Below are positions 25,714 to 28,208 of a stretch of 64,000 nucleotides of DNA, piece by piece; position 1 is the stretch's first letter, and each line of letters starts with the position of its first letter. The position numbers were made by a program, and so were the translations under genes. Source of the DNA: Candidatus Electrothrix scaldis (lineage in GTDB: Bacteria > Desulfobacterota > Desulfobulbia > Desulfobulbales > Desulfobulbaceae); the NCBI GenBank assembly GCA_033584155.1, contig CP138355.1:1444501-1508500 (forward strand), given 5' to 3'. The notes under the pieces were generated by a model. That model made no database searches. It worked only from the letters and a program-made list of their open reading frames with translations, and was not told where the DNA came from.

Positions 25714-26363
25714 ATGGCCTCGTCGTATAATCAATCTTATCTGGTTTATAAAATTGCCAAGGTGCTGGACCAGGACGATAAATATAATTTGCATATTGAA
25801 ATGACATTGGGTGCGGCTCTTCTGTTTTGATGTTAACATATTTATAATATATCAATTGTAGATTTCAAATTGAGTGTTATTCGCTCGAACTGCTCTACTT
25901 TTAATCCGGTAAAAATAGACCCCATAATTACCACCACATTAACAGGAGCAGTTTAGACAAATAGCACTTAAAGTAAAATGAAGTATTGGCACTTTTTCAA
26001 TACCCTAGCTTTGATTTAGAAGAGCCGCACCCAATGACATTGGACATCAATGGCACTGATTATATTCCTGATATTGTCTTGTACAAGAAAGAGCGGATTG
26101 ATTTCCTGCATGATAAAATCAAGGCGGATAAAACGCCTCTTCTGCTGGTCGAAATATTGTCTCCGAAGCAGGCTGTCAATGAAATCACGGAAAAGTTTGA
26201 AGTGTATTTACAGGCCGGGGTTAAATCCTGCTGGCTTGTGATTCCGCCGACCAAGACCATTGTGCTGTTTCAGGATATTCAGCAGCCCCGATCTTATTCA
26301 AGTGGGCGATTTACTGACCCGGTTATTGAGCTTGAGGTTGCGGTTGAGGATATTTTTTCCTGA
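25714..26363 (+). pseudogene. Uma2-family (DUF820) nuclease-like gene broken by a MITE-like insertion
   Basis: The gene starts at the ATG 25714 (AGAGGGG upstream), 11 bases after sdhA, and reads MASSYNQSYLVYKIAKVL and so on to HIEMTL, then runs into the insertion and stops at 25828-25830. The reading resumes at the second copy of the target site (26034, ATGACATTGGACATC) as MTLDINGTDYIPDIVLY, then LLLVEILSPKQAVNEITEKF and CWLVIPPTKTI to the stop at 26361-26363. Joining the two at the repeated ATGACATTGG restores one continuous frame of about 138 residues. The PD-(D/E)XK-type acidic residues (PDI, VEILSP) lie in the 3' part, which can still be read from a TTG at 25986 inside the insert; whether that is translated is unknown. 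Confidence 0.85.
25811..26033. mobile_element. 223-bp MITE-like insertion with terminal inverted repeats and 10-bp target duplication
   Basis: Flanking direct repeats ATGACATTGG occur at 25801-25810 and 26034-26043. The ends are inverted copies: the left junction reads CATTGGGTGCGGCTCTTCT and the right junction reads its exact complement, so 19 bases match, overlapping the target copies. The inside is AT-rich with no open frame of transposase size. Removing it plus one target copy restores the Uma2 reading frame. The GGCTCTTC core resembles ISL3-type ends, but the target duplication does not fit well, so the family is unassigned. Confidence 0.8.
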
Positions 26364-26420: not shown

Positions 26421-28208
26421 ATGATCATCATTCCGAATCTTGCCATTGCCGGGTACCGAAGTTTTGGTCGGGAGCCGCAGTATTTTGATCAATTTGCGAA
26501 GATCAATCTGTTTATCGGGCAGAATAATGCGGGGAAGTCCAATGTACTTCGTTTTTTGAGTGAGGTTTATCCGCAGGTATGGCCGATGTTAGCTAAATTT
26601 CCACGGCCAAAACTAACGTTGGGCGAGCTTGATCGACATCTATTTGATAATCCATCGTTGCTTTTAGGGCTTGGTGAAAAAAATAACATGGACGAATTGC
26701 CTCCAAAACATCGGCTGATTCATCATGTGACCAATCCGCAGCAGAATTCCAAAGCAGCAAAACTTCTTTGCAGATTACTAAAGGAGAAGGCACGGATAAA
26801 CAATACAGAGATGGATTGGAGATGGACTTCATTACCTCCAATACCGGCAGAGAAAATAGAAACTCAGGAATCCTCGATTGCAGCAGTGAAAGTTCTTCCT
26901 GATGACGAAGTTATAGAGTTATGTAGGATTTTAAAGCAACAGCCTGATGGTGATGAACGAGAGATAATTGCAAGAAAGATACAACTACCTCTTTCTGAGG
27001 AAGATATCAAAAATATCAAGGTCAAGTTAATCCCAGCAATCCGAAAAATTGGAGAAAAGGGAAGCAGCTCTGATGATTTTGACGGCACAGACATCATCGA
27101 CCGGCTGGCAAAACTCCAGAATCCCGATGTGCATAACCAGCAAGACCGAGAACAATTCAACGAGATAACTGATTTCCTTCGCGATGTCGTTGATCGGCCC
27201 AATGCTGTTCTTGAAATCCCCTACGAACGGGACACCATTCATGTCCACATGGACGGCAAAGTCCTACCCATTGAATCCCTTGGAACCGGAATTCATGAGG
27301 TGGTTATTCTCGCCGCCGCAGCAACCGTGCTTTCTGAACATGTTGTCTGCATCGAAGAACCGGAACTTCATCTTAATCCTATCCTCCAACGTAAGCTGAT
27401 CCGCTATCTTGCCGCACATACCAATAATCAGTATTTCATCACCACTCATTCCAATGTACTGATGGATGTGCCCGAGGCCGAGATATATCATATCAAGCTG
27501 GTTAACGGTGCCTCCGAGGTCAAGCGGGTAACCTCCGGTAGTCAGAAGTCGGCGGTTTGCGAAGACTTGGGCTATCATCCTTCGGATCTCCTGCAAGCAA
27601 ATTGTATTATTTGGGTTGAAGGTCCATCAGACAGAATTTATCTTAATTGGTGGCTCCAGAGTGTAGATGAGGACTTGGTAGAAGGTATCCATTACAGTAT
27701 TATGTTCTATGGCGGCAGGTTGCTGTCGCATCTCTCTAATGCAGAGATAGATCAAGAGCATGTTGATGATTTTATCTCCTTACGCAGATTGAATAATCGT
27801 GGTGTGATCCTGATTGATAGCGACAAGGAAAAAGTTCGTTCCCGCATCAATGTAACGAAGAGCCGACTGCGAGACGAGTTTGATACCGGGCCGGGACATG
27901 CCTGGATAACTGAAGGACGGGAGATTGAGAATTACCTTCCTGAGGAGCAAGTGGAAACAGCAATTGGAGAGGTTTGCCCGAAGGCAAAGAAAAGAGGTCC
28001 GTTCGGAAAATATGATAACACCTTGAAGATTCAAGGAGCGCAGGGTAAGGAAACGCAGGCGAATAAGATTGGGGTAGCCCGTCATATAACGGAGCAGTGT
28101 AAACCAGATCTTTCACGGTATGACCTCAAGGCGCAGCTCAACAAGCTGGTCGGGTTTATCCGAGAATCAAATCCGGCTCCAGCTTCCGGCGGGACGGTTA
28201 TTTCTTAA
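26421..28208 (+). CDS. OLD-family ATPase-TOPRIM nuclease
   Basis: 595-residue protein of the overcoming-lysogenization-defect type, with an ABC-like ATPase and a TOPRIM nuclease, often in phage defence. N-terminus PNLAIAGYRSFG is the usual AAA_21-type opening; Walker A is IGQNNAGKSNVLRF (residue 30 on), the signature-like loop is SLGTGIHEVVILAAA, Walker B CIEEPELHLNP, and ITTHSNVLMD the switch histidine. The TOPRIM part has IIWVEGPSDRIYLNWWL (Glu), GVILIDSDKEK (DxD) and EGREIENYLP. No GajB-like UvrD helicase is adjacent, so it is not a Gabija pair; a stand-alone class 1 OLD is the best reading. Its 3' end overlaps the converging toxin gene by 11 bases. Confidence 0.88.
   Translation: MIIIPNLAIAGYRSFGREPQYFDQFAKINLFIGQNNAGKSNVLRFLSEVYPQVWPMLAKFPRPKLTLGELDRHLFDNPSLLLGLGEKNNMDELPPKHRLIHHVTNPQQNSKAAKLLCRLLKEKARINNTEMDWRWTSLPPIPAEKIETQESSIAAVKVLPDDEVIELCRILKQQPDGDEREIIARKIQLPLSEEDIKNIKVKLIPAIRKIGEKGSSSDDFDGTDIIDRLAKLQNPDVHNQQDREQFNEITDFLRDVVDRPNAVLEIPYERDTIHVHMDGKVLPIESLGTGIHEVVILAAAATVLSEHVVCIEEPELHLNPILQRKLIRYLAAHTNNQYFITTHSNVLMDVPEAEIYHIKLVNGASEVKRVTSGSQKSAVCEDLGYHPSDLLQANCIIWVEGPSDRIYLNWWLQSVDEDLVEGIHYSIMFYGGRLLSHLSNAEIDQEHVDDFISLRRLNNRGVILIDSDKEKVRSRINVTKSRLRDEFDTGPGHAWITEGREIENYLPEEQVETAIGEVCPKAKKRGPFGKYDNTLKIQGAQGKETQANKIGVARHITEQCKPDLSRYDLKAQLNKLVGFIRESNPAPASGGTVIS

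Follow-up and report, generated by a model that had tools for sequence, protein, structure and literature searches.

Prokaryotic MITEs, as presented in the part of a review available to us (PMC10969869), are short elements devoid of a transposase that carry terminal inverted repeats, are accompanied by duplications, occur in many copies and have a related insertion sequence (IS) able to act in trans. According to the same part of that source, such an element can itself be a target for other transposons, as is the case of QMITE2 of Coxiella, a target of IS1111. The word ISKra4 is absent from the main text of the review, so far as that text was available, and another paper (PMC9208149) mentions both ISKra4 and MITE, with no link drawn between them in the available part. 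As for cable bacteria, the accessible parts of two genome papers (PMC10926707, PMC10030654) report that insertion sequences were called by ISEScan; MITE has no occurrence in the main text of the first of them (PMC10926707), and no paper joining cable bacteria with miniature inverted-repeat was found in the open literature searched.

Here, we analyse an element located in a stretch of 64,000 nucleotides of the Candidatus Electrothrix scaldis genome (hereafter the window). A sequence-only reading of the window had proposed a MITE-like element disrupting a Uma2 gene. By all features that could be tested the element is a MITE; we describe its borders and its copies, its likely helper, and the origin that its two halves suggest.

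Results

A precise insertion in a Uma2 gene

The borders of the element were read from the sequence and obtained by script (Table 1); an automated repeat search gave no repeat at this position, though the repeats are plain by eye and by script. The AT-richness that the sequence-only reading had given to the element is borne out (64% vs 53% for the window), but its length, put there at 223 bp, is in fact 224 bp. The same reading had assigned to it a 10-bp target duplication, ATGACATTGG, and 19-bp inverted ends, and both have to be shortened. The duplication, AATGACATT, is 9 bp long, as established by the exact 9-bp duplications of the sister copies, and the terminal inverted repeat, GGGTGCGGCTCTTCT, is 15 bp long, the extra CATT belonging to the duplication. 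The longer repeats are chance matches beside the true borders: ATGACATTGG appears to be repeated because GG happens to open the element and also to follow the target site in the gene, so that the left occurrence of the 10-bp sequence borrows two G from the element and the right one two G from the flank, and the inverted ends seem to reach 19 bp because the ends of the duplication are complementary (AATG...CATT).

Table 1. Coordinates of the features of the inserted element, its target gene and the related split copies (window positions unless a locus is given).
Feature	Position	Strand	Remarks
MITE type A, 224 bp	25809..26032	.	20 genome copies, all with exact 9-bp duplications
Left terminal inverted repeat GGGTGCGGCTCTTCT	25809..25823	+	
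Right terminal inverted repeat	26018..26032	-	
Target duplication AATGACATT, left copy	25800..25808	.	
Target duplication AATGACATT, right copy	26033..26041	.	also repeats the in-frame Uma2 ATG at 26034
Uma2 5' fragment	25714..25830	+	now 38 codons, stop within the element
Uma2 3' fragment, gene broken	26042..26363	+	intact orthologues in five other genomes
Left half	25809..25915	+	vs G007 5' end, terminal repeat removed: 86, best of 1000 shuffles 43; 3' end 16
Right half	25933..26032	-	vs G007 5' end: 56, best of 1000 shuffles 40; 3' end 18
Mini-element split by IS1380-family element, 1.9 kb	L057:5252-7154		
Mini-element split by IS1380-family element, 3.6 kb	L058:4299-7881		

Joining the flanks yields one frame of 138 codons, exactly the continuous Uma2 frame that had been predicted once the element is removed. 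This joined frame matches the Pfam Uma2 family (PF05685) with 57.6 bits (cut-off 27), and the 3' fragment alone reaches 53.9 bits. When the joined protein was searched against eight genomes of the genus Candidatus Electrothrix, the own genome (G000) included, uninterrupted orthologues free of stops and with 88-95% identity were found in five of the seven others (G005, G003, G001, G002 and G007), while G004 and G006 gave only distant matches (no more than 35% and 40% identity, respectively). The genus is assigned from one protein: for the neighbouring protein of 642 aa, the three nearest relatives include Candidatus Electrothrix marina (93%) and gigas (91%), and identity falls to 76% for the fourth. 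The five empty orthologous sites align without gaps with the joined flanks across the insertion point, over 138 bases. Of the genomes compared, G000 alone has the insertion, which is genuine and precise, the latter two points being those that the sequence-only reading had made. It had also been called fairly recent, which agrees with the window copy being one base away from five other copies of the genome; this base is unlike that of all other aligned type A copies.

Together with the target, the in-frame ATG of Uma2 was duplicated (26034-26036), so that a restart of the 3' fragment, which holds most of the Pfam match, would in principle be possible at this ATG. Downstream of the gene, positions 26421-28208 form a frame of 595 codons with an ATP-binding motif, which by eye looks like an OLD-type nuclease.

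Copies in the genome and in relatives

The own genome consists of one contig of 5,089,909 bases, with 33 exact matches to the 15-bp end, 17 of them forward and 16 reverse, against none for the reversed control. The MITE-like reading had called for a search of the genome for the end in inverted pairs and for a transposase-bearing element with the same ends: many such pairs are present, and one transposase-bearing element was found, its ends being nearly the same. By DNA search, the genome holds 20 copies of the mini-element, namely 11 of type A (98-100%), seven of type B (88-89%) and two split copies of type A; four weaker partial matches are the ends of an insertion sequence. Exact 9-bp duplications flank 20 of 20 copies (18 unsplit and two split). 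The copies are dispersed, lack a transposase gene and measure 224 bp, save one of 223; in type A the 15-bp terminal inverted repeat is exact, whereas the two ends of type B differ at one position. As five copies (L037, L038, L045, L048 and the split one in L057) share a single site of a repeated element, the number of distinct sites in G000 is 16. At one locus (L066, G000:C1:2487063-2487519) two copies, of type B and type A, follow each other head to tail, separated by a single 9-bp AATTGATTT. The repeat that surrounds them occurs elsewhere too, and there the same site carries only a B copy, only an A copy or an A copy interrupted by an IS1380-family element; in one such repeat (in L056) it is empty.

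In G005, ten copies were found, all ten with exact 9-bp duplications, and only one of them lies at a site common to G000 (compared with the 18 unsplit G000 copies, the two split ones being left out), a hint that many insertions postdate the split between G000 and G005. A single copy, 73% alike and lacking a matching duplication, is present in G001. A wider search covered 57 genomes, the own included, with no more than 14 candidates scored in each: among the matches listed per genome, those to the element came from G000, G001, G005 and G007, and the ones of G007 are insertion-sequence ends. The target duplications have A-rich starts and T-rich ends, as seen in a set of 24 from which the shared-site copies L038, L045, L048 and L084 were dropped and the two split copies and the G001 copy left out.

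Uma2 is not the only gene affected. In 12 of the 18 unsplit copies (L031, L032, L033, L034, L035, L036, L040, L044, L046, L047, L049 and L050), the joined flanks open a frame of at least 120 codons that extends 15 codons or more to either side, some of these being likely chance frames. A Pfam scan of one piece each from ten of these 12 copies gave four matches above the cut-off (ABC transporter, PIN domain, PKD domain and DDE endonuclease), two below it and four pieces with none. With Uma2 counted, at least five of the 18 unsplit copies reside inside genes that have a domain match.

An ISKra4-family insertion sequence as the likely helper

Within the ISKra4 family, one subgroup has ends starting with GGG and produces a 9-bp duplication. 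The helper candidate in G000 fits this subgroup, with the exception of one of its seven full copies, which has no matching duplication. It is represented by seven elements of 1689-1694 bp (1.69 kb) and one shortened to 1297 bp, and a further end of the helper type stands alone in the genome. Its ends read GGGTGCGGCTCYTTT; in the forms GGGTGCGGCTCTTTT and GGGTGCGGCTCCTTT they show one or two changes out of 15 relative to the type A end, which has TCT where the helper has TTT. The transposase matches the ISKra4-family model (NF033572) with 306.6 bits (curated cut-off 205), and its frame is open over 519-521 codons in five of the seven full copies. Exact 9-bp duplications are found at six of the seven; matching duplications are absent from the remaining one (L075) and from the shortened copy (L082). 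Two of the ISKra4-family copies, L077 and L080, have the same length (1694 bp) and the same frameshift, yet each sits at a site of its own, between exact 9-bp duplications that differ in sequence from one copy to the other; a copy that was already broken may thus have been moved in trans.

Past these ends the kinship is looser: in the first 86-107 bases, the G000 helper and the mini-element are only 69-71% alike. Among the matches listed, neither the own genome nor its relatives gave a closer parent, and a name search of the genome contigs gave no helper relatives. Two single ends were fetched as possible closer parents: the one in G001 opens a stretch of an ISKra4-family element, and the one in G007 matches over only about 40-59 bases. 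ISKra4-family matches number 31 in all in G000, and at five sampled places outside the seven no end lies within four mismatches of the mini-element end. Two of these five places (L239 and L240) make up a second ISKra4-family group in G000 and share an identical stretch of 1572 bp, with ends GGGAGCATTCCC that are unlike those of the mini-element. Altogether, the 1.69-kb insertion sequence is very probably the helper, and we infer from the shared ends and duplications, and from the sites that differ between G000 and G005, that the mini-element has been mobilised in trans.

Both halves resemble one end

The origin of the mini-element was addressed by removing the 15-bp ends and comparing the left and right halves of type A, type B and the G001 copy with the ends of ISKra4-family elements; the half scores given for the window copy were measured on the sister copy L032, which is one base different. 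Against the 5' (transposase-side) end of the G007 element, all six halves score higher (56-86) than every one of 1000 dinucleotide shuffles (best shuffles 40-44), whereas none of the six stands out against its 3' end (16-19; 449 to 779 of 1000 shuffles as good). The comparison of four elements, with 300 simple shuffles each, goes in the same direction: 16 of 24 comparisons with 5' ends are above the best shuffle (G007 6/6, G000 4/6, G005 4/6, G003 2/6) and 0 of 24 with 3' ends. Left and right halves also match each other in types A and B (0/1000 shuffles as good) and in the G001 copy (4/1000). Because both halves are homologous to the transposase-side leader, we favour, with some reserve, the idea that the mini-element consists of only one end of an ISKra4-family insertion sequence, this leader, present as an inverted dimer.

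Another scheme, in which the mini-element derives by internal deletion from an unseen ISKra4-family parent with ends alike over about 100 bp, appears unlikely. It would accommodate the fact that a direct parent was not found and that, when halves were set against known 5' ends, eight of the 24 comparisons are not above shuffles, among them the type A right half vs the G000 and G005 helpers and four of the six halves vs the G003 5' end. Yet no half has a match to the 3'-end interior of any of the four elements compared, and the two ends of the G000 ISKra4-family element share little past the terminal repeat.

Even less credit can be given to the view that the mini-element persists because it works as a hairpin RNA or a regulatory cassette, and not as a mere passive transposon, which we regard as very improbable. 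The predicted fold is very stable on both strands (z -7.2 and -7.6; 0/200 shuffles as stable), but strong folding is expected because the element is an imperfect palindrome. The base pairs changed on both sides are in excess (4 vs 1.6 in shuffles; 15/500 as high), whereas the cells changed on both sides (4 vs 3.1) and the covariation score (0.055 vs 0.058) show no such departure from shuffles, in a set of 11 distinct copies out of 29 aligned that amounts to about three separate lineages and is a weak test either way. On these three or so lineages the evidence leans against selection on the fold, and the copies found inside genes with a domain match also speak against a functional cassette. With covariation not clearly above shuffles, we take the strong hairpin for a probable leftover of the way in which the element arose.

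Finally, that the parent would be a 1.9-kb (L057) or a 3.6-kb (L058) element, of which the 224-bp form would be an internal deletion, can be practically discarded: both have identical ends and 9-bp duplications and the former holds a transposase frame of 474 codons, but this transposase belongs to the IS1380 family (292.8 bits against a cut-off of 180), the insert has inverted ends of its own, CCTAAATCC...GGATTTAGG, and the 5-bp repeats of mini-element sequence beside it (TATAT vs TTATA) lie at two different positions. The two candidates were rejected on the junctions, the own ends and the duplications of the insert; they are two separate insertions of IS1380-family elements into the mini-element. 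L058 carries the same protein sequence as L057, in pieces, and further pieces of the same element are found inside it. Identical ends in a longer element are no proof that it is the parent.

Discussion

This study documents a recently active family of mini-transposons together with its likely helper in a cable bacterium, and a gene disruption caused by one of its members, established against five intact orthologues. The proposed sequence of events would be as follows: (i), the family may have arisen long ago, when the 5' leader of an ISKra4-family insertion sequence was duplicated in inverted orientation, leaving two 5' ends and no 3'-end interior; (ii), the ISKra4-family transposase would pair the two 15-bp ends of the mini-element; (iii), insertion would take place through staggered cuts at AA-N5-TT-like sites such as those observed, producing the 9-bp duplications that flank the copies; and (iv), the window copy recently entered Uma2 and broke its frame. 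If the single-end origin is correct, its route would be a foldback duplication and not an internal deletion, and the family would offer a testable case of MITE formation and of the end needed by an ISKra4-family transposase. Two left ends would then form a competent substrate for this transposase, and it is tempting to speculate that a left-left pair might even outperform the left-right pair found naturally, because the mini-element occupies 16 distinct sites in G000 vs seven full helper copies.

How does this family compare with the systems already described? With the ISKra4-family insertion sequences (NF033572), the mini-element shares a near-identical terminal repeat, the 9-bp duplication and a homologous 5' leader; it differs from them in having neither a transposase gene nor a 3'-end interior and in its size (224 bp vs 1.69 kb). 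Like QMITE2, hit by IS1111 in Coxiella (PMC10969869, in the part available), it is the target of another transposon, here an IS1380-family element, although the element families are others and two separate insertions with 5-bp duplications are seen here. As in the prokaryotic MITEs of the same source, so far as it was accessible, the mini-element is short, lacks a transposase, has inverted ends, duplications and many copies, and goes with a related insertion sequence. It is a new family of a known kind, whose make-up is unusual and resembles two copies of one transposon end: unlike the MITEs described there, both of its halves look derived from the same single IS end.
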